Source of the DNA: Gelria sp. Kuro-4
GTDB lineage: Bacteria; Bacillota; DTU030; DUMP01
Reading direction: 5' to 3'
Length of the DNA: 64,000 nt
NCBI RefSeq assembly: GCF_019668485.1
Contig: NZ_AP024619.1
Span: forward strand, 2,535,757-2,599,756
Below the pieces are notes generated by a model that made no database searches, was not told where the DNA came from, and worked only from the letters and a program-made list of their open reading frames with translations. A program made the translations under genes and the position numbers. This document shows, in pieces, positions 1,836 through 39,257 of this stretch (position 1 is its first letter; each line of letters opens with the position of its first letter).

Positions 1836-2717
1836 TTGTCTGCAGAAATCCGGGAGCAGGTCCCGTTGAAGGATTATACTTCCTACAAGATCGGGGGCCC
1901 CGCCCGCTATTTTTGTGAACCGCACTCCATCGCCCAGCTCAAAGACGCCCTCTACTTCGCCGAAGAGCATACTCTTCCCGTTTACATCCTGGGCTGCGGC
2001 ACCAACGTCCTGGTGAGCGACAGCGGGGTGAACGGCCTCGTCATCCGGGTGGCTGCCGACTTTGCCTATCTGTCCTTTCAGGACGGCGTGGTGCAGGTGG
2101 GCTCCGGGCTTCTTCTCGACCATCTGGTGACGGCGCTGGCCGAGGAAGGCCTGGGTGGATTCGAGGTGCTGGCGGGGATCCCCGGCTCGGTAGGGGGCGG
2201 TATCTTCATGAACGCCGGTGCCTACGGCGTTACGCTGGGCGATTTCGTCCAGGAAAGCACCGTTATGGACTTCAGCGGCATCATCCGCCGCCTCCCCCAC
2301 GCAGAGCACAATTTCTCCTACCGGCACAGCATCTTTCAAGAAAAGGACCTCATCGTCCTGGAGACACTCCTTAAAGTAGAGGCGCGCCCGCGCTCCGAAC
2401 TCCTCGAGCGCATCGCCGCCACCAAGGAAAAGAGGCGGCGCCACCCGCGGCTGCCCAGCTGCGGCTCCACCTTCCGCAACCCGCCCGGTACCTACGCCGG
2501 CAAGGTGATCGAGGAACTGGGACTCAAAGGCACACGGATCGGTCAGGCGCAGATTTCGCCCGATCACGCCAATTTCATCGTCAACCTGGGCGGGGCGACG
2601 GCCGCCGACGTCTACGCCCTCATCCGGCTGGTCCGGAAAGAAGCCGCCGCCCGCGGCATCACCCTGGTACCGGAGGTACGCCTCTGGGGCGAATTCCCGG
2701 AAAGCGAGCCCTGCTAG
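1836..2717 (+). CDS. murB: UDP-N-acetylenolpyruvoylglucosamine reductase MurB
   Basis: FAD- and NADPH-dependent enzyme that makes UDP-N-acetylmuramate in cytoplasmic peptidoglycan precursor synthesis. About 293 residues, the length of the short (type II) MurB class. Visible motifs: YTSYKIGGPA and LGCGTNVLVSD in the FAD domain, GIPGSVGGGIFMNAGAYG, SYRHS (active-site Arg region), CGSTFRNP (proton-donor Ser region) and VPEVRLWG (catalytic Glu region). The reading frame is open from a GTG at 1824, but that GTG is part of the SD sequence AAGGAGGTG; TTG at 1836, nine bases later, is the likely start. It stands alone here, with its own terminator, rather than beside rapZ-yvcK-whiA. Confidence 0.95.
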   Translation: MSAEIREQVPLKDYTSYKIGGPARYFCEPHSIAQLKDALYFAEEHTLPVYILGCGTNVLVSDSGVNGLVIRVAADFAYLSFQDGVVQVGSGLLLDHLVTALAEEGLGGFEVLAGIPGSVGGGIFMNAGAYGVTLGDFVQESTVMDFSGIIRRLPHAEHNFSYRHSIFQEKDLIVLETLLKVEARPRSELLERIAATKEKRRRHPRLPSCGSTFRNPPGTYAGKVIEELGLKGTRIGQAQISPDHANFIVNLGGATAADVYALIRLVRKEAAARGITLVPEVRLWGEFPESEPC

Positions 2718-2733
2718 CGTGCCGCTTCGCCTT

Positions 2734-2766
2734 CTCCAGCCCGCGCAAGCGGGCTGGAGTTTTTTT
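2734..2766 (+). terminator. Intrinsic terminator of murB
   Basis: Perfect 11-bp stem CTCCAGCCCGC / GCGGGCTGGAG with a GCAA loop, followed by seven T residues. Confidence 0.95.
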
Positions 2767-2922
2767 GCCTGCTCGCTTCCCGCCGGTCCTCAGAATGGGA
2801 AATTTTTTGAATAGGGGAACCAAATAATGGTGCACTTCGTCTATAAATTGGAGGCGGCTTTTACCCCGGAAAACTCAGCGGGAAACCTCGGCCAAGAGCA
2901 GCCGACAAGGAGGAGAGGAAAG

Positions 2923-5169
2923 ATGGTCATACAGCGTTGCCGCCTGCGCGTGCAGGCTGGGAAAGGAGCAACCCGGGCAGGGGTGAGCTGCCTGGCCCTA
3001 CTGCTGCTGGCGGCGGCCCTCGCCGGCTGCACCCCCACCCCTGGCCAGGGCGGCGGTGGGCCCGCGGCAGGCGAACCGGTCGCGCTGGAGAGCGGGCAGC
3101 CTGACCCGGGGACTTCCACAGCACCCGGCGCCTTTGCCGGCTTCGCGGAGGTTCCGGTTCGGGTCAGCCCTGCAGTCAAACCTTATCAAGTGGCTCCGGA
3201 CCTGAGCAACATCACCAACAAAGATATGTTTACACTGTCACCCGCGGCCCGGAACCTCTTCATCAAGAACGGGTTTGTGGTTGTGCCGAACAGCCACTTC
3301 AAGGAGTTCTTCGCCCTCTATGAGATGAACCGGTACGCACCGCGGCCGCTTTTTGTCACCACCGATTCGCTGCTGCATAACTACCACCTCTTTTTTAGCC
3401 ATTTGCTGCGGGTGATGGAAGAAGAAAGCCTCGCGCCGGACCTGAAAAGGTTGACCCAGTCCCTGCTGGAAAGAGCGCTTCAAGATCTTGCCGCCCTGAA
3501 AGGCACGGCCTGGGAAAACGCCGCCCGGCGCAACGTGGCCTTTCTGGCGGTGGCAGCCCGGCTTTTGGACCTGGAAGCGCCGGTGCCGGGAGAAGTAAGA
3601 AAGGTAGTTGAGGCTGAACTTACCCTGATTGACCGGCACCGGGAATGGGCCCTTTCCCCGGTGATGAACCTGGGCAGCGACCCTGACCTGGTGGAAGGCT
3701 TGAAGGAAGACTATTCCCAGTACCTGCCCCGGGGCCACTACGACAAGTCCGATCTGCTCAAGTCCTATTTCAAGGCAATGATGTGGTACGGTCGGCTCAC
3801 CTTCCGGGCCCAGAGCGAGGATGAGACCCGGTCCGCCGTCTTGCTGACCCGGGCACTCGATCAAGCGGGAAACCCTGAGCTCTGGGCCAGAATCTATGAA
3901 CCGACCAAGTTTCTGGTCGGCCAGAGCGACGATCCTACGTATCCCGCTTACCGGGAACTCCTCCTCAAGGTCTACGGGCCCGCCGCCGGCCTGAAAACCC
4001 TGGTGGAGGACCGCGCGAAATGGTCCCAGCTCGTGGCAGCCGTGCGGGATTTAAAACCTCCGGCCATTAATTCCCTGCCCATCTTTGCTGCCGGTCTTCA
4101 GCCCGACCGGGACAGGGAGATCAGCGGCTTCCGTCTCCTGGGTCAACGCTTCACCTTGGACGCCGCCATTTTTCAGCGGCTGGTCTATCGCGAAGTGGGG
4201 GAAAACAGCTGCGGTGCAAGAAGGATGCTGCCCCGGGGCCTGGACATCGCTGCGGCCATGGGTTCCCGAGAAGCATACAAAATCCTTCAGGCGGAAGGAG
4301 AAACCGACTACGCCCGGTATCCGGAGAATATGGAGCGGCTGCGCCGGGCAATCGCCGGTTTGGACCCGACGACCTGGACGCAGAACCTGTACTGGGGCTG
4401 GCTGTACACCCTCCTTCCTCTCACCTGGGAAAAGCCGGAAGGCTACCCTTCCTTCATGCGCAACCCGGCCTGGGCCAGAAAGGAACTCAGCACCTACCTG
4501 GCCGGCTGGACGGAACTGAAGCACGACACCCTGCTCTACGCCAAACAGGTCTACGCCGAGGCCGGCGGCGGCGATCAGGTCGACGACCGGGGCTATGTGG
4601 AACCCAACCCCTACGTCTACGCCCGGCTGGCCGCCCTGGCGCAAATGACCCGGGAGGGACTCATGGCGCGCCAGCTTATCAGCGAACGGGACCAGGTCAA
4701 CTTACAGCGGTTGGAGGAGCTCGCCCTGGCTCTCAAGGCCATCGCCGAGAAAGAGCTGAACGCCACCCCCTTGGCCGCAGAGGATTATGAGCTGATCCGC
4801 TCTTACGGGGCCAGCCTGGAACACTTCTGGCTCGAAGCCCTGCGGGACGAAGGCGTCGACCACCCCTCCGCCCAGAACGACCGGCCCGCGGCGTTGGTGG
4901 CCGATGTGGCGACCGACATCGGCGGCGGTCGGGTCCTGGAAGAAGCCACCGGCCCGGTTTTTCCCATCTATGTGGCCGTACCGGTGGACGGTAAACTGCG
5001 CATCGCCGTCGGCGGCGTCTACTCCTACTATGAGTTCCCCTGGCCCCTCGCGGAGCGTTTGACGGATAAAAAGTGGCACCAGCTGATCAACGAAGGCCAA
5101 GCTCCCCCTCAGCCGGCTTGGACCAAGTCCTTCACCGCCCCGCCCGCTGCCGCTCCACCCCATGCCTAG
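2923..5169 (+). CDS. DUF3160-family exported lipoprotein
   Basis: About 748 residues. The frame opens at 2827, but the ATG at 2923 follows a strong SD (AAGGAGGAGAGG) and starts a proper lipoprotein signal with lipobox LAGC (Cys about 36). A low-complexity Gly/Pro linker follows, then a large domain beginning near residue 80 with NGFVVVP, YEMNRYAPRP and FVTTDSLLHNYH, the hallmark of DUF3160 proteins. The biochemical function of that family is unknown. The gene overlaps the next one (CapA-like) by 8 bases, so the two are probably cotranslated and act together outside the membrane. Confidence 0.85.
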   Translation: MVIQRCRLRVQAGKGATRAGVSCLALLLLAAALAGCTPTPGQGGGGPAAGEPVALESGQPDPGTSTAPGAFAGFAEVPVRVSPAVKPYQVAPDLSNITNKDMFTLSPAARNLFIKNGFVVVPNSHFKEFFALYEMNRYAPRPLFVTTDSLLHNYHLFFSHLLRVMEEESLAPDLKRLTQSLLERALQDLAALKGTAWENAARRNVAFLAVAARLLDLEAPVPGEVRKVVEAELTLIDRHREWALSPVMNLGSDPDLVEGLKEDYSQYLPRGHYDKSDLLKSYFKAMMWYGRLTFRAQSEDETRSAVLLTRALDQAGNPELWARIYEPTKFLVGQSDDPTYPAYRELLLKVYGPAAGLKTLVEDRAKWSQLVAAVRDLKPPAINSLPIFAAGLQPDRDREISGFRLLGQRFTLDAAIFQRLVYREVGENSCGARRMLPRGLDIAAAMGSREAYKILQAEGETDYARYPENMERLRRAIAGLDPTTWTQNLYWGWLYTLLPLTWEKPEGYPSFMRNPAWARKELSTYLAGWTELKHDTLLYAKQVYAEAGGGDQVDDRGYVEPNPYVYARLAALAQMTREGLMARQLISERDQVNLQRLEELALALKAIAEKELNATPLAAEDYELIRSYGASLEHFWLEALRDEGVDHPSAQNDRPAALVADVATDIGGGRVLEEATGPVFPIYVAVPVDGKLRIAVGGVYSYYEFPWPLAERLTDKKWHQLINEGQAPPQPAWTKSFTAPPAAAPPHA

Positions 5170-6766
5170 GCGAAGGCTATGGCTGCTGATCGGCGGGCTG
5201 GCGGTCGTACTGGGGGCGCTCACGCCCAGGCTGGAAACTGTCCGCCTGGAGACCTTTGCCACCTTCCGCGCCGGCGAAATGCGGCTGCCGGTACAAGAAG
5301 ACCCGATCGCGCTGGTGGCGGTGGGCGACATCATGCTCTCGCGCGGCGTGGCGCGGGAGATGAAAAAGGCCGGCGACAGCCGCTTACCCTTCGCCAAGAT
5401 CAAACCCTACCTGCAGGGGGATATTGTCCTCGGCAACCTGGAAGGACCGATCACGCCGGGACCGGAGATAGAGCCGTCGGAAATGCGCCTCCGCGCCGAC
5501 CCGGGAACCGAGGCCGTTCTACGCGACGCCGGGTTCACCCTGCTCACCCTGGCTAATAATCACCTTCCCGACTTCGGTCCGCATGGGATCAGCGATACCC
5601 GGCAGTACCTCGCCCAGGCCGGGATCGGCTGCACCGGGGCCGGTCTGACCGCCCGTCAGGCTGGCGAGCCGTACTGCGTGCAGGTCAAAGGGGTCCGGTT
5701 GGCCTTCCTGGCCTTTGCCGATCCGGAACTAGTTCCTGCAGTCCACGGTACCGGGGAGGAGCAACCGGGCCCGGCCTTGTTCAGCCCGGAAAAAGCGGCG
5801 GCCGCCGTTCGAGCCGCCCGCCGAAAAGCGGATTTTATTGTCGTCTCCCTGCACGGCGGCCGGGAGTACGCCGCCGAACCGGACGAAGCCCAAATCCAGG
5901 CCGCCCGCGGGGCCATCGACGCCGGGGCGGATCTGGTCCTGGGACACCACCCCCATGTGGTGCAGCGGGTGGAACGCTACCGGGGAGGGTATATCCTCTA
6001 CAGCTTAGGCAACTTCGTTTTTGACCAGTGGTGGTCGGAAGCCACCCGGGAGAGCGTGGTCGTCCGGCTTTTGGTGGACAAGAGCGGCGTGGAAAAACTG
6101 GAGTTCCTCCCGGTGTACATCAATAAGCGCGCCCAACCGGAACCGGTGCGGGGCGCCGCTGCACAGAGCATCGCCGCCCGGCTCGAGCTGCCTTTGCAGG
6201 CAGAACCGCTGGCCACCTGGAGCGAAAGCGACTCCTCCTACTACCTTGGCACCAAGTATGTCCATTACTGCCGCCAGACACTGGAGGCCTTTCGGCGGCG
6301 GCAAACCGCCCACGCCGACCTGGACGAAGACGGCCGGCAGGAAGTCTACCGGCTGCAGAACGGGCGGCTGATCGTAGAGGAGGAGGCGCAGCCGCTGTGG
6401 CAGTCGCCCCCAGAATGGTGGGTGGACGGTTTCACCCTGGCCGATGCCGATAACGACGGCCGGACCGACCTCAACTTGAGTGTCTGGAAGGCGGGCAGTT
6501 TTGGGCCGCACAAGCCCTTCTGGATAACTGAAGACGACAACAGCGTCAAGAACCACCTTTTCATCTTTGACCTGGTTGATGATGCCGTCAAGCCGATCTG
6601 GCAGTCCTCCAACCTCGACCGCCCCATCTGCGAAATGGCTTTCACCGATCTGGACGCCAACGGGGAAAATGAGCTGGTTGTCACTGAGGGCAGCTATACC
6701 GACCCGACCAACCGGCAGCTCACCATCTGGCAGTGGAACGGCTGGGGCTTCACACGCCTGCTGTGA
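5162..6766 (+). CDS. CapA-like metallophosphatase-fold protein with C-terminal FG-GAP/VCBS repeats
   Basis: 534 residues. An N-terminal hydrophobic segment (about 6-22) suggests export with a membrane anchor. Residues about 50-330 are a CapA/PGA_cap domain: VGDIMLSRGV, LGNLEGPIT, LANNHLPDFG, SLHGGREYA, GHHPHVVQ and YSLGNFVFDQ. The C-terminal part has three acidic loops of the DxDxDG type (ADLDEDGRQE, ADADNDGRTD, TDLDANGENE), as in Ca-binding FG-GAP/VCBS repeats. CapA proteins are linked to poly-gamma-glutamate export or anchoring, but no capBC genes are visible here, so a capsule role is not supported. Its ATG overlaps the end of the DUF3160 gene (ATGCCTAG). Confidence 0.88.
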   Translation: MPRRRLWLLIGGLAVVLGALTPRLETVRLETFATFRAGEMRLPVQEDPIALVAVGDIMLSRGVAREMKKAGDSRLPFAKIKPYLQGDIVLGNLEGPITPGPEIEPSEMRLRADPGTEAVLRDAGFTLLTLANNHLPDFGPHGISDTRQYLAQAGIGCTGAGLTARQAGEPYCVQVKGVRLAFLAFADPELVPAVHGTGEEQPGPALFSPEKAAAAVRAARRKADFIVVSLHGGREYAAEPDEAQIQAARGAIDAGADLVLGHHPHVVQRVERYRGGYILYSLGNFVFDQWWSEATRESVVVRLLVDKSGVEKLEFLPVYINKRAQPEPVRGAAAQSIAARLELPLQAEPLATWSESDSSYYLGTKYVHYCRQTLEAFRRRQTAHADLDEDGRQEVYRLQNGRLIVEEEAQPLWQSPPEWWVDGFTLADADNDGRTDLNLSVWKAGSFGPHKPFWITEDDNSVKNHLFIFDLVDDAVKPIWQSSNLDRPICEMAFTDLDANGENELVVTEGSYTDPTNRQLTIWQWNGWGFTRLL

Positions 6767-6804
6767 ATAAAGAAAAGACGCCGCTTTAGGCGCCTTTTCT
6801 TTAT
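6767..6804. terminator. Bidirectional terminator between the CapA-like gene and tmRNA
   Basis: Sixteen-bp stem with one mismatch: ATAAAGAAAAGACGCC / GGCGCCTTTTCTTTAT, loop GCTTTA. The A-rich left arm and T-rich right arm let it work on both strands, ending the CapA-like gene (plus) and ssrA (minus). Confidence 0.9.
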
Positions 6805-6808
6805 GTTC

Positions 6809-7161
6809 TGGTGGAGGCGGGGGGGAATTGCACCCCCCGTCCGAAGGTGTACCCACACAGGCCTCTACGAGCGTAGCTCCTGCTTTAGCGTTCGCCCGCA
6901 CGGCCTCCCAGGAGCAGGATGCCGCTTGGGCTAACCCCGTAGCTTTCCCGCCTGGCTCCAGGGTGCCTGCCCGGCGGTAGCCTGCTAATCTGACACCCGG
7001 ATCCGGCCCCGCAGGCGCAGGCCGGGCGGATGGGCCGCGTTAGTTACGCAGCCAGTGCGTAATCGTTGTTGGCAGTTATGCCTTTCCATGTTGGTGCGCG
7101 GTCATGGTCCGCGGCTCGCTTCCTGTGCCCATACGACCCCCGTCGAGCCTAAATCGCCCCC
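6809..7161 (-). ncRNA. ssrA: Transfer-messenger RNA (tmRNA)
   Basis: One-piece tmRNA of about 353 nt, which rescues stalled ribosomes together with SmpB. The 5' end GGGGGCG pairs with CGCCTCC just before the encoded 3' ACCA end (7-bp acceptor stem with one G-U). The 5' side continues with the conserved GGCTCGACGGGG segment. The tag reading frame is 7073-7044 on the minus strand and encodes ANNDYALAA followed by TAA; the charged alanine is added in front. A T-arm (GGGGGG and CCCCCC arms) precedes the acceptor strand. The 5' end overlaps the last 13 bases of smpB, and a strong terminator follows. Confidence 0.95.
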
Positions 7162-26259: not shown

Positions 26260-27648
26260 TCAGGCGAAACGACGGCGGCTGGCGGAACAAGGGATCCGGG
26301 CTTCTTCCCGGTACTTGGCCACGGTACGCCGGGAAACGCTGATCCCCCGCTGCCCGAGAAGCTCGGCAAGCTTCTGGTCGCTGAGCGGGTGGCGCGGGTC
26401 TTCCTTGGCCACGAAATCCGCCAGCAGGCGTTTCACCGATTCGGCGGCCGCAGCGGTGCCGCCGGCACTCTCGACGCCGCTGCCGAAAAGAAAGCGCAGG
26501 GGAAAGACGCCCTGGGGTGTCTGGATGAACTTGTTGGCCGTGGCCCGGCTCACCGTGGATTCGTGCATGCCGATCTCTTCAGCCACCTGCCGCAGGGTCA
26601 GGGGCTGCAGGTAACGCACACCGTAGTCGAAGAAGGCCCGCTGGCGCCTGAGCAGCACCTCGACAATGCGGTACACGGTGCGGCGGCGTTGCTCAATGCT
26701 GCGGATCAGCCAGAGGGCGGAATTCAGCTTGTGCTCCAGGTAACGGCGCGTGTTCGGGTCGCACTCGCCCGGGTGAGCGAGTAGGCGGCGGTAATAGTTG
26801 TTCAGTGTCAGGCGGCTGGCAGCGGCGTCATTCACCAAAATGACGTATTCGCCCTCCACCTTCTCCACGCTGACATCCGGGACCACGTACTGGATCTCTT
26901 CCCCCGACGCGTACCTCCTGCCGGGCTTCGGGTCCAAGGTGCGGATGAAATCGCGGATCGCCTGGACCTCTTCCAGGCTGAGCCCCAGGTCGGAAGCTAC
27001 GCGCGTAAGCTTCCCTTCCGCGAGGTCGCGCAGGTAACCCTTGATCACCCGGCGCACCGGCGGGCTGAGCCGGCCCAGCGCCCGGGCCTGAATAAGCAGA
27101 CACTCCTCCAGGCTGCGCGCGCCGACGCCCGGCGGGTCGAGCCGTTGAATCCCCCGGAGCACGCGCAGGATGCGAAAGCGCGGTACGTTGAGGGCTTGGG
27201 CCATCTCTGTCACGCCGGAGCGCAGGTAGCCGTGTTCATCCAGGTTGCCGATGATAAAAAGGCCGATCCTGAGCTCCTCCCGGGTGCGGGCGGTGACCCG
27301 CCACTCGCCCGCCAGGTGCTCCGCCAGCGTGGTTTCGCGGCTGATAAAGTTCTCCCAGGCCGGCGCCTCCTCACGGCTTGCGGGGCCTGACGGCCAGGGC
27401 AGGTCGCTTCCTCCCTCCAACCGGTCGGCCCACTCAGTTTCCGCCTCCGCCTCCGGCTCCGCCACCGGCGGGTCCGGCCGGGTGTCATCCTCGGAAAGCT
27501 CCAGGAGCGGGTTTTCCTCCAGCTCCTCTTCCACGTAATCCAAAAGCTCTTGGGTTGGAAGCTGCAGGATCGAGATCGCCTGCCGCAGTTCCTGTGTCAT
27601 CACCAGTTTCTGGGTCTGTTCCAGGGTGAGACTGAAGGCCATACCCAT
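26260..27648 (-). CDS. rpoN: RNA polymerase sigma-54 factor
   Basis: 462 residues. N-terminal Gln/Leu-rich activator-interacting region (LTLEQTQKLVMTQELRQAI, LQLPTQELLDYVEEELEENP), acidic linker, core-binding domain, and the C-terminal RpoN box SRRTVAKYREEARIP with the preceding helix-turn-helix LTLRQVAEEIGMHESTVSRA. It directs transcription from -24/-12 promoters with AAA+ activators, none of which is encoded here. GAGAGGGG precedes the ATG at 27648; ATG at 27642 is equally possible. It is next to cggR but probably transcribed separately from the gap operon. Confidence 0.97.
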   Translation of the reverse strand: MGMAFSLTLEQTQKLVMTQELRQAISILQLPTQELLDYVEEELEENPLLELSEDDTRPDPPVAEPEAEAETEWADRLEGGSDLPWPSGPASREEAPAWENFISRETTLAEHLAGEWRVTARTREELRIGLFIIGNLDEHGYLRSGVTEMAQALNVPRFRILRVLRGIQRLDPPGVGARSLEECLLIQARALGRLSPPVRRVIKGYLRDLAEGKLTRVASDLGLSLEEVQAIRDFIRTLDPKPGRRYASGEEIQYVVPDVSVEKVEGEYVILVNDAAASRLTLNNYYRRLLAHPGECDPNTRRYLEHKLNSALWLIRSIEQRRRTVYRIVEVLLRRQRAFFDYGVRYLQPLTLRQVAEEIGMHESTVSRATANKFIQTPQGVFPLRFLFGSGVESAGGTAAAAESVKRLLADFVAKEDPRHPLSDQKLAELLGQRGISVSRRTVAKYREEARIPCSASRRRFA

Positions 27649-34899: not shown

Positions 34900-35080
34900 A
34901 TTGTCGCGTAAGCTGCCGGTTCAGCAGGATTTACTTTCCCGAAAGCGAACTACGAATTATCCTGAAAAATGCTACCCGACCAAGCCGTACGGTAGAAGCA
35001 GGATGGCAGGGTCACCCCGCACGGCGCAGCACGCCGCCGTGCTATGCGTTCCAAGTTCGGCGGGAAAGGAAGGATGTACA

Positions 35081-35854
35081 GTGCAGAAAAACCGCGTGCG
35101 CCAGCTCCTGGAGGCGAAGCGGCCCGCCTTCGGCACCTTCAACTGGCTTACCGGGCCGGAGTGCGTGGAGATCCTGGGGGCGGCGGGGTTTGATTTTGTG
35201 GTGATCGACATGGAACACGGCCCGCACGGGCAGGACCACCTTCCCGGCCTGCTGCGGGCGGCCGACGCCGCCGGGATTGTGCCCATCGTCCGGGTGACAA
35301 AAAACGAGCCCACGCTCATTCTGCGTGCGCTCGATTTGGGAGCCAAGGGACTGCACGTCCCGCAGGTGAATACCGGCGCCGAGGCGGCAGCCGTAGTGCA
35401 GGCCGCCCGTTACTGGCCGCAGGGGGAGCGCGGCTTCGCCCCCGGCACCCGGGCGGCCCGCTTCGGCGCCCTGGACCAAGAGGCGTACATCGCCGAGGCC
35501 AATGCGGACCCGCTCCTTATCATTCACATTGAAAACAGGCTCGGCGTGGAGAACCTGGACGACATCCTGGCCGTGCCGGGGATCGACGTCATCTTCATCG
35601 GCCCGGCCGACCTCTCGCAGTCGCTGGGCCTTCCAGGGCAGCTCGGTCACCCGCGCGTGGTGGAGCTGGTGGAGGTCACCATCGCCAAGGCCAGGCAGGC
35701 CGGCCTACCGGTGGGCATCTTCGCCCTGAATGCCGAAGACGCCGCCCGCTGGGTACGGGCCGGCGTAACCTACCTGGCCCTCGGGGCAGATAGCTTTTTC
35801 CTCTTCAACACCGCCCGCGCCCTGGTGGAGCAGCTGCTGCCACTCAGGGGCTAG
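35081..35854 (+). CDS. HpcH/HpaI-family aldolase
   Basis: About 257 residues. A class II, metal-dependent pyruvate aldolase fold: [31 protein letters not shown] (metal/base), [35 protein letters not shown] and [15 protein letters not shown]. Family members cleave or make 2-keto-3-deoxy sugar acids or 4-hydroxy-2-oxo acids and yield aldehydes; the substrate is unknown here. The start GTG at 35081 has AAAGGAAGG seven bases upstream. It converges on the Rossmann-chemoreceptor gene and their stop codons overlap by three bases. Confidence 0.9.
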
Positions 35855-36666
35855 GCGCTCAGTTCGGCAAGTCTGCTTCCCTCGGCCGATAGTTCGGCCA
35901 GCACCTTGCTGATCTCAGCCGCCAGGGCGGCCTGCTCCTCCGTGAGGGCACCGGCCCGCTCCATGGACGTGCGCACCCCGGCGAGAAACGACTGCAGCTC
36001 GTCCAGCGCCGCGGCCACCTTCTTCACGGCTGCGTCGGACTCTGCCGCCAGCTTTCTAACCTCGGCCGCCACCACGGCGAAGCCCCGGCCGCTCTCCCCG
36101 GCCCGTGCCGCCTCAATGCTGGCGTTGAGCCCCAGGATATTGGTCTGGCGGGCCAGGTTGCGGATCACCGCCAGCACTTCGGCCGTGTTCTCCGCTCCAG
36201 CGGCCGCCTGTTCGCTGGCCGCCGCCACCTCCCGGGACTGGGTACCCAGCTCCCGGGATTTTTCTTCCCAGGCCGCCAGGGAAGCGTCCATGGTTCGGGC
36301 GGCTTGGGCGATGCCCTCGGCCGTGCTCTTTAACCTCGCCACCAACCCCTCTTCCCGGGCAGCCACCTCGATGAGCAGCCGGGCGCTGCAGGCATCCACC
36401 AGGTGACAGCCGGGCGGCAACGCCTGGCGCAGGCCCTCCTGGACGGCTGCAATGCCGGTGACCTCGATCACCATGTCCAGCCCCGGCTGCGCCAGGAGCT
36501 CCTGCCAGTCCGTCCAGACCGGCAGCCCCAGCTCGCGGGCCAGGGCCAGCCCCGGCGCCGCTGCGTTGCGGTCGCAGATGCCGGCGATCTCCACCTCCGG
36601 CAGGTTCCGCAGCACGGCCAGCACCCGGCTGCCCCCCTGGCCGGCCCCTACAATACCAACGCGCAA
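35851..36666 (-). CDS. Soluble fusion of a Rossmann NAD(P)-binding domain and an MCP signalling domain
   Basis: About 271 residues, no membrane segment. Residues 1 to about 110 are a Rossmann domain resembling MocA/homoserine dehydrogenase N-domains: [27 protein letters not shown] and DMVIEVTG. From about residue 110 the protein is a long helical hairpin whose tip is the chemoreceptor signature [17 protein letters not shown] (about 174-190) followed by [16 protein letters not shown]. So a dinucleotide-binding sensor is joined to a CheA/CheW-contact module. The TTG at 36666 follows GGAAGGGAGG; TTG 36690 lies before that SD. It starts 33 bases after the aldehyde:ferredoxin oxidoreductase stop. 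The signalling role is inferred. Confidence 0.85.
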
Positions 36667-36698
36667 AGAATCTGCCTCCCTTCCTGTCAAGCCGCTCT

Positions 36699-38567
36699 CT
36701 ATGCTTCTAGGCCGGCCGCACCGGCTGGGGCGAAATCCGCCAAGCCGAGCCGCGCCAGGGTCTCCGGCCGCGGGATGCCCTCTTCCGTCCAGCCGCGCAC
36801 CTCGTAGTACTCGCTCAGCATGCGCCCCAGGGGCGGCAGGTTGTCCCCGGCACCGCCGCCCTTTTTGAGCGTCAGGATGCGCGGTGAGATGGTGTCGTCC
36901 TTGCGGCTCACGCCCAGGCGCACGTTGTAGAGGCGCTTCAGGTTGAAGAGCCGCTCACCGATGTGAATGAACGACGCCACATCCAGTTCCCACCCGGTGA
37001 CCAGGTTCAGCCACTCCACCACATGGTGCGGCTTGGCCCCGCCCCAGAGCAGGAACTTACAGACCTTGAGCGAGTCAAAAAGCGACATCAGGTTCTGCAT
37101 CGCCGCCGTCATGGCGCCCTTTTGCTCGGCGGCAAAGCGGTCCAGGATCTCTGGAAAGCCCAGGTCCGGCATGGTAAGGGAAAGCTCGAGCCCGTGGGTG
37201 AAGCCCTGCAGGTGGCAGGCGCCGCGGTTGCTGGTGGCGTAGCCCACCGCCAGGCTGTTGTAGGTGCGCGGGTCGTGGGCCGGGAACTCCAGGCCCTTGC
37301 TGTGGACGGTGAATTCCGGGGCCAGGCCGCCGATCTTTTTGGCCGCCCGCACCGTCCCCTCCGCCAGGAGCGCCCCCAAGGCGCGCCGGTGGGCGATCTG
37401 GTCGATCAGGCCCAGCATGGCGGCGGCGCTCCCCCAGGTGAGCTCCAGCCCTTCCGCGTCGGCCGCCGTAATCAGGCCGTGCTCGTAGCACTCCATGGCG
37501 AAGGCGATGGCCGCGCCGGTGGAGATGGTGTCGAGCCCGTAGCGGTTGCACAGCTCGTTGCCGTAGGCGATGGCCGGCAGGCTGTCCACCAGGCACATCC
37601 CGCCCAGCATGCCGATGGTCTCATACTCCGGGCCGGCCCCCTCCACATGGCCCCAGGGGGTGTCGGCCTTCACCTCGCGGCCGCAGCCGATGGGACAGCG
37701 GTCGCAGTAGTAGCGGCCGGTGAGCATGGTCTCGGCCATGACCTGCCCCGAGATCTTGGCCGCTCCTTCCGGCCAGGTGCCGCGCCGCCAGTTCTGGAGC
37801 GGGAAGTCGCCGATCTTCTCGGTGGACACAACACCGCCCGCCGTGCCGTACAGGTGCCGCCCGCGGCTCGCCTCCACGAGCCCCGGGGCAAAGGCCTTGA
37901 GGGCGCTCTCCAGCTCGGCGGGCCGGGCCACCTTCACCCTTTGACTGCCGCGCACAGCCACCGCCTTGAGGTTCTTCGACCCCATCACCGCGCCTACGCC
38001 GGCGCGGCCGGCGGCGCGCCCGTGGCTGCCCTCGCTCATGATCCCGGCGATGAGGACCTGGTTCTCCCCCGCCGGGCCGATGCAGGCCACACTGACATCC
38101 GGGGCCGTTTGCTCCCGGATGAGCTCCTCCGTGACATAGGTATCCTTGCCCCACAGCCCGGCGGCCGGGCGCAGTTCGGCCCGCCCGTCGTCCACGTAGA
38201 GGTAAAGAGGCGCCGCCGCCCGCCCCTTGATGGCGATACCGTCAAAGCCCGCTGCCTTGAGACGCGGCCCGAACTTTCCGCCGGCGTCCGCCTCGGCCCA
38301 AATCCCGGTGAGCGGCGAGCGGGTCACCACGGCATAGCGCCCGGAAGTGAAGACCTTCGTTCCCGTAAGGGGACCGGTGAAAAACAGCAGCAGGTTGTCC
38401 GGCCCCAGCGGGTCGGTCTCCGGCCCGGTTTCCCGGTAGAGCAAAGCCGCGCCCAGGCCGCTGCCGCCGATATAGGTACGCGCCTCTTCCTCGCTTAATT
38501 CCACCTGTTCAATTGCACCCTGCGTCAAATCCACCCGCAGGACACGTCCCATGTACCCACCGTGCAT
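36699..38567 (-). CDS. aor: Aldehyde:ferredoxin oxidoreductase (tungsten-pterin family)
   Basis: 622 residues. It oxidises aldehydes to acids with ferredoxin, or reduces acids in reverse, using tungsten bis-pterin and one [4Fe-4S] cluster. N-terminal [48 protein letters not shown] (pterin binding), the cluster motif [13 protein letters not shown] with the fourth Cys in LKVCKF, and [12 protein letters not shown] are present. Closest general type is the broad AOR family; the aldehyde is unknown. GAGGTGAACGG precedes the ATG. It heads a two-gene operon with the Rossmann-MCP fusion. Confidence 0.95.
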
Positions 38568-38736: not shown

Positions 38737-39207
38737 CTAAACACCAGCCGTGGCCGAACCCGGCATACCCTTTCCTGTACCGAGTTTCAGCCGCATGCAG
38801 ACGGCGCTTACGGGGCAGGCGCTCTTAAACTCCACCGACTGCTGCACGGCGGGATCGACGGCGCTGCGGTCGATGCGTTTGAAACCGAAGCGGGGAAAGA
38901 AGTCGGCGGCCGTCTGGGTGAGGAGGTAGAGCTCTTGCAAGCCGAGCTCGCGCGCCCGGTTGATCATGGCGCGGGTGATGCCCTGCCCCAGCCCGGAGTT
39001 GCGATACGCCGGCGCCACCGCCACCGACCTGAGCAGCCCTGCCCGGCCGTGAATTTCCAGCCCGGCTACCGCCGCCAGCTCCCCGTCGACCATGAGTTTA
39101 AGAAAATTAGCGAAGTTCTCTTCTACACCGGCCAAAGGCAGCCCGGCTTTCGTCAGGAGTTCCTTTACCATGGCCAGGTCTTCCTTTTCCACCGGTACAA
39201 TCCGCAC
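38737..39207 (-). CDS. GNAT acetyltransferase, ArsN2-like
   Basis: About 156 residues. GNAT fold with acetyl-CoA loop VAPAYRNSGLGQGI, preceded by AAVAGLEIHGRAGLLRSVAV and followed by ELYLLTQTAADFFPRFGF and SACPVSAVCM. This pattern matches the ArsN2 group, named for its place in arsenic operons; no arsenic gene adjoins it here, so that role is unproven. GTG at 39207 follows AAAAGGGGGGA; the longer frame from 39234 has no good SD. Confidence 0.85.
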   Translation of the reverse strand: MRIVPVEKEDLAMVKELLTKAGLPLAGVEENFANFLKLMVDGELAAVAGLEIHGRAGLLRSVAVAPAYRNSGLGQGITRAMINRARELGLQELYLLTQTAADFFPRFGFKRIDRSAVDPAVQQSVEFKSACPVSAVCMRLKLGTGKGMPGSATAGV

Positions 39208-39257
39208 GAGCAGTCCCCCCTTTTCCCTGCGCATCCGGCCCGGCGGCCGGGATTTGG

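Follow-up and report, generated by a model that had tools for sequence, protein, structure and literature searches.

The gene at 35851..36666 of the window (the whole stretch of Gelria sp. Kuro-4 DNA analysed here, 64,000 nucleotides long) couples a Rossmann fold to the signalling hairpin of a chemoreceptor. It raises the question of whether such a fusion is genuine and, if it is, what its product senses, to which partners it reports, and whether the aldehyde:ferredoxin oxidoreductase (AOR) family gene found upstream has a part in its function.

Architecture and distribution of the fusion gene

The open reading frame starts with a TTG codon at position 36666, preceded 8 bases upstream by a GGAGG Shine-Dalgarno sequence, and its stop codon ends at 35851. 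Residues 1-88 of the encoded protein match the Pfam family GFO_IDH_MocA (41.7 bits, 2.2e-10; cut-off 24) and residues 135-265 match MCPsignal (90.1 bits, 2e-25; cut-off 34.6), the latter being matched in all 62 fusion orthologues. An earlier note, prepared from the DNA letters only, had described a Rossmann domain joined to a chemoreceptor hairpin with no membrane segment. Both halves exceed the curated Pfam cut-offs, the reading frame, strand and coordinates are correct, and no membrane helix is found in the protein (the highest Kyte-Doolittle mean over 19 residues is 1.41). A HAMP domain is also absent. The fusion protein is a Rossmann half-domain followed, with no linker and no membrane segment, by a methyl-accepting chemotaxis protein (MCP) hairpin; it can be described as a cytosolic chemoreceptor roughly of the 24H class. 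Its features are the following:

35851..36666, minus strand: Rossmann-MCP fusion gene, 271 amino acids (Pfam, open reading frame, orthologues)
36394..36666, minus strand: NAD-type Rossmann half-domain, residues 1-91, with no catalytic domain after it (Pfam, secondary structure of the model, Foldseek match to 1nvm)
36631..36648, minus strand: GAGQGG nucleotide-binding loop with G7, G9, G11 and G12 (conservation)
36571..36573, minus strand: Asp32 at the end of strand 2 (D in 61/62 sequences, E in 1/62)
36454..36459, minus strand: Thr70-Gly71, after strand 4 (invariant, 62/62)
35854..36393, minus strand: MCP signalling hairpin, residues 92-271, which the last Rossmann helix enters without a break (Pfam, model, Foldseek)
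36058..36147, minus strand: hairpin tip, 30 residues including N181, E185, R188 and V198 (alignment to Tsr, conservation)

Matches spanning the whole protein (E <= 1e-30) were collected from 398 evenly sampled genomes of the phylum, representing 266 genera. Full-length orthologues are present in 60 of these genomes and in 43 genera (~15% of the sampled phylum genomes, about one in seven), and three relatives from the same family are 60-68% identical to the fusion protein over its full length. The full-length orthologues in same-family relatives and across the phylum rule out an assembly frameshift, which in the earlier note was named as a finding that would refute its reading, or a chance fusion: the gene is real and conserved. 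The pairing is also less rare than that note supposed. A contig scan using a narrower Rossmann set returned 11 loci, including Moorella mulderi, Thermosediminibacter litoriperuensis and several MAGs. A search of plasmids gave one true relative, in Acetoanaerobium noterae, the remaining matches being mostly ordinary MCPs; a plasmid search with the Rossmann-only consensus yielded nothing beyond this relative.

The Rossmann half, the hairpin and their predicted partners

The structure of the fusion protein was predicted by AlphaFold2 on a 62-row alignment of fusion sequences. The model has a mean pLDDT of 87.8, with values of 91-96 across most of residues 1-90; its pTM is only 0.52 and the relative orientation of the Rossmann half and the hairpin is therefore uncertain. 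The Rossmann half is modelled with five strands, of which one, near residue 50, is short; the helix after the fifth continues directly into the hairpin. Foldseek superposes this half on the NAD-dependent acetaldehyde dehydrogenase 1nvm (99 columns, ~2.4 A, 31-33% identity), and among PDB entries the Rossmann-domain profile also picks up dehydrogenases of acetaldehyde and of inositol. The C-terminal catalytic domain of GFO/IDH/MocA or homoserine-dehydrogenase-type oxidoreductases is entirely missing, its place being taken by the MCP hairpin from residue 92, so the fusion protein is not an enzyme of these dehydrogenase families.

The glycines of the nucleotide-binding loop (G7, G9, G11 and G12) are kept in 60, 61, 58 and 61 of the 62 sequences, respectively. 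An aspartate at the end of strand 2, the position of Asp32, usually goes with NAD(H) rather than NADP(H). The nucleotide pocket, whose loss in a predicted structure would have counted against the earlier note, is retained as judged by the fold and by the motifs (GxGxGG, Asp32, Thr70-Gly71). A conserved Rossmann fold is by itself no proof of nucleotide binding or of a signalling role; together, motif and model make NAD(H) the probable ligand of the Rossmann half.

The hairpin superposes on E. coli Tsr (1qu7) over 176 columns at 2.4 A as an antiparallel helical hairpin, as well as on TM1143 (2ch7) and on the model of the soluble receptor YfmS (Foldseek). Its tip residues N181, E185, R188 and V198 align, with an offset of 200, with Tsr N381, E385, R388 and V398. 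N181, E185 and V198 are kept in 62/62 sequences and R188 in 59/62; in MCPs these are positions of contact with CheA/CheW and with the receptor trimer. Fusion proteins are usually ~285 residues long. The first arm of the hairpin is seven residues (one heptad) shorter in the family of the window, where the second arm also ends about one heptad earlier than in the ~285-residue form; arms that run antiparallel in a hairpin would be expected to lose a heptad in this paired way. The strict consensus of the CheR/CheB methylation sites is found in 23/62 sequences, at scattered positions.

At least two genes coding CheW domains are found in all 60 fusion genomes while any CheW is found in 277 of the 338 others (Fisher p = 2.5e-5, uncorrected for phylogeny, such that shared ancestry could account for part of the difference). 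The genome that carries the window codes five other MCPs. Its flagellar-che operon includes FliR-, FlhB- and FlhA-family genes, cheB, a cheA with domains P1-P5, cheW, cheC, a gene of a sigma-70-family factor and, by sequence reading, a probable cheD. Because the tip residues are conserved, CheW genes are present in every fusion genome and the organism has its own flagellar-che operon, the fusion protein is likely to act through CheA/CheW, as had been proposed for a soluble receptor in the earlier note.

The genomic neighbourhood and the aldehyde connection

The fusion gene lies between two genes whose presence and orientation, already described in the earlier note, were confirmed by Pfam and by their coordinates:

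36699..38567, minus strand: AOR family gene, AFOR_N and AFOR_C domains, 622 amino acids (Pfam)
34901..35854, plus strand: HpcH/HpaI-family aldolase gene, convergent, with a 4-base overlap with the fusion gene (Pfam)

The orthologues of the aldolase begin at a position corresponding to ~35081, which is therefore its probable true start. Upstream of the AOR gene, at 38737-39234, the window also carries a gene coding an ArsN2-like acetyltransferase (NCBIfam NF040501, above cut-off), a neighbour of the fusion gene in genomes G006 and G007 as well. A gene for a sigma-54 factor (rpoN/sigL) is found in the window at 26260-27648.

The position of the AOR gene, on the same strand and ending at 36699, 32 bases upstream of the fusion gene, gave rise to the proposal of a tie to aldehyde metabolism, the fusion protein being a dedicated sensor that works with the upstream enzyme. 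The same pair occurs in G010, whose AOR is a 70% identical orthologue of the window copy, and AOR genes are commoner in genomes with the fusion (53/60) than in the others (174/338), an excess that may reflect only anaerobic lifestyle, the obvious confounder. When the surroundings of all 62 fusion loci were inspected, however, an AOR gene was found to adjoin the fusion in two of them only, those of the window and of G010, which belong to the same family, so that the recurrence beside AOR genes for which the earlier note proposed to look did not emerge. The pair is likely ancestral in this family. G006 and G007, from the same genus, keep the fusion, the aldolase and the acetyltransferase with no AOR gene at the locus, and no AOR elsewhere in the two genomes is as similar to the window copy as that of G010 (the best are 60% identical in G006 and 46% in G007; G006 has in addition a partial match of 66% at a contig edge). 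Seven fusion genomes lack any AFOR_N match at 1e-20. The genome of the window (G000, 2.88 Mb) has about ten AOR-family genes, of which three share 60% identity with the window copy, so that finding one adjoining the fusion gene is weak evidence of a functional link. These counts, with the situation in G006 and G007, eliminate the AOR as a conserved partner and make a dedicated aldehyde sensor improbable. The AOR gene is likely a co-transcribed upstream neighbour of the fusion gene. The aldolase is likewise rejected as a conserved partner, G010 keeping the AOR gene without it.

Other loci have a different organization, with spmA-spmB directly upstream of the fusion gene in ten cases and rluB directly downstream in eleven (names assigned by sequence reading). 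The spmA-spmB-fusion-rluB cluster of about ten orthologues could point to an MCP-like protein working outside taxis, for instance as a spacer in receptor arrays or as a regulator of sporulation, and the very short receptor with its indistinct methylation sites would fit such a role. We regard it as very improbable given the near-invariance of the residues of the tip that contact CheA/CheW and the CheW-domain genes that accompany the fusion in every genome.

The Rossmann subfamily on other outputs and comparison with known systems

A profile restricted to the Rossmann domain detected matches in 91 of 299 genomes at E <= 1e-9, many of them in open frames much longer than 285 residues. Twenty of the loci were inspected. 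At E values mostly of 1e-20 to 1e-47, the same Rossmann subfamily forms the N-terminal part of long MCPs, of sigma-54 activators and of an HD-GYP protein. Five of the loci (L143, L144, L147, L153 and L157) code sigma-54 activators in which the Rossmann domain is accompanied by PAS domains. The loci named by coordinates are:

L139:1684-3159, L140:2155-3648, L142:2755-4239 and L156:2350-3825: long Rossmann-MCP proteins, 490-520 residues
L147:3233-5293 and L157:2612-4684: BkdR-like Rossmann sigma-54 activators (E 5.3e-30 and 1.4e-28)
L146:3099-5372: HD-GYP protein with Rossmann, GAF and PAS domains

In these long MCPs ~200 residues separate the Rossmann domain from the hairpin, and no Pfam match was obtained for them in the two proteins scanned (L139 and L140). 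The activators of L147 and L157 owe the label BkdR-like to their position, each having a glpQ-like gene on one side and ptb-bcd on the other, and in L147 a spo0A-like gene is also close; it is possible that their Rossmann domain is the effector-binding domain. In L146 the same input module is apparently linked to c-di-GMP turnover. Among other relatives, the activator of L143 precedes fumarase and malic enzyme genes, that of L155 precedes sdh genes, and another relative adjoins a DHDPS-family gene; ptb-bcd, the fumarase and malic enzyme genes and sdh all belong to central catabolic oxidation. A few sigma-54 relatives, such as L152, have degenerate nucleotide motifs. In L144 the gene of the Rossmann sigma-54 activator (2680-4389) is found ~2 kb from an AOR gene (6277-6999), with a sodium:solute symporter gene between them, and L148:3675-4124 codes a stand-alone Rossmann domain of 150 amino acids that ends within the first helix after the fold, possibly a truncated or split receptor. 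A tree of the Rossmann domains is too short for the number of fusion events to be read from it.

The subfamily moves between receptors, activators and a phosphodiesterase with its nucleotide motif mostly kept, and because of this it behaves like a sensor; the best reading is that of a mobile input module of the cytosol and not of an AOR accessory. Since catabolic dehydrogenase genes neighbour the module, the NADH/NAD+ state would be the simplest common signal. Another view is that the fold senses a different metabolite (an amino acid, an oxo-acid or an acyl-CoA) or serves mainly as a platform for dimerisation or docking. The lack of a catalytic domain in the fusion and the degenerate motifs of some sigma-54 relatives agree with it, as do the branched-chain amino acid, fumarase/malic enzyme, sdh and DHDPS-family genes found beside relatives, which suggest that the ligand could be pathway-specific. 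It is rather unlikely, as GxGxGG and Asp32 are near-invariant in 62 receptors from many families, a pattern hard to explain without nucleotide binding.

The reading towards which we lean, somewhat more than evenly, is that of a cytosolic NAD(H)-type Rossmann chemoreceptor driving redox or energy taxis. The ligand of the Rossmann half would be NAD+ or NADH, or else a metabolite sensed by way of this nucleotide. Its state would shift the helix after the fifth strand, which forms the first arm of the hairpin, and this shift would travel mechanically along the hairpin to the tip and so to CheA/CheW. The result would be taxis by the internal NADH/NAD+ state and not by a specific aldehyde. That the protein reports redox or energy state is, from motif, model and relatives, a slightly favoured assignment. 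Of the earlier proposal, a sensor of redox state or of an aldehyde metabolite, the NAD-type Rossmann sensor is retained (the fold is intact and the module occurs on other outputs) while the aldehyde link is abandoned, with an adjoining AOR in 2/62 loci. More tentatively, the subfamily might be a mobile input module for the NADH/NAD+ state that has gone unrecognised in the phylum. Placed on chemoreceptors, on sigma-54 activators such as BkdR and on c-di-GMP phosphodiesterases, it would let one redox readout govern swimming, the expression of catabolic genes and second messengers, and the fusion gene of the window would code its short motility form, a chemoreceptor that reads the nicotinamide pool directly.

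Neither half of the fusion is new in kind, and proteins of this sort will already be listed as MCPs in sequence databases. No account of Rossmann- or NAD-domain chemoreceptors, or of the Rossmann module, was found in the accessible literature, and a survey of Clostridiales sigma-54 activators lists many input domains, this Rossmann subfamily not being among them (PMC6615313). The BkdR-like activators share with the fusion an N-terminal Rossmann domain of the same subfamily but have a PAS-PAS-AAA+-Fis output instead of an MCP hairpin; with the same module on both, the NAD(H) hypothesis could extend to the effector mechanism of these activators. The NAD-dependent acylating acetaldehyde dehydrogenases of the DmpF type (1nvm) and the GFO/IDH/MocA dehydrogenases have the same Rossmann fold and nucleotide loop, whereas the fusion is without their catalytic domain. 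On the signalling side, the soluble MCP of T. maritima (3g67), B. subtilis HemAT and YfmS have, like the fusion, a short cytosolic hairpin with no membrane segment. HemAT senses through a globin while the fusion has a Rossmann input. No known ligand is given for YfmS (PMC5743806). The integrative YfmS-CheW model 9a72 is the best Foldseek match for the fusion hairpin; this match covers only 162 columns and so demonstrates no shared Rossmann input.

If the proposed reading is true, a soluble NAD-type Rossmann receptor would let the cell swim directly by its nicotinamide state. The Rex repressor is a Rossmann NADH/NAD+ sensor of Gram-positive bacteria with a DNA-binding winged-helix output, a functional analogue of the sensing proposed here. 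Most of what is known of energy taxis concerns flavin, haem and membrane-coupled receptors. Those of the Aer type, which are attached to the membrane and report the internal redox or energy state by a FAD-PAS domain, have a proposed purpose in common with the fusion; the latter is soluble and would serve it by an NAD-type Rossmann fold.
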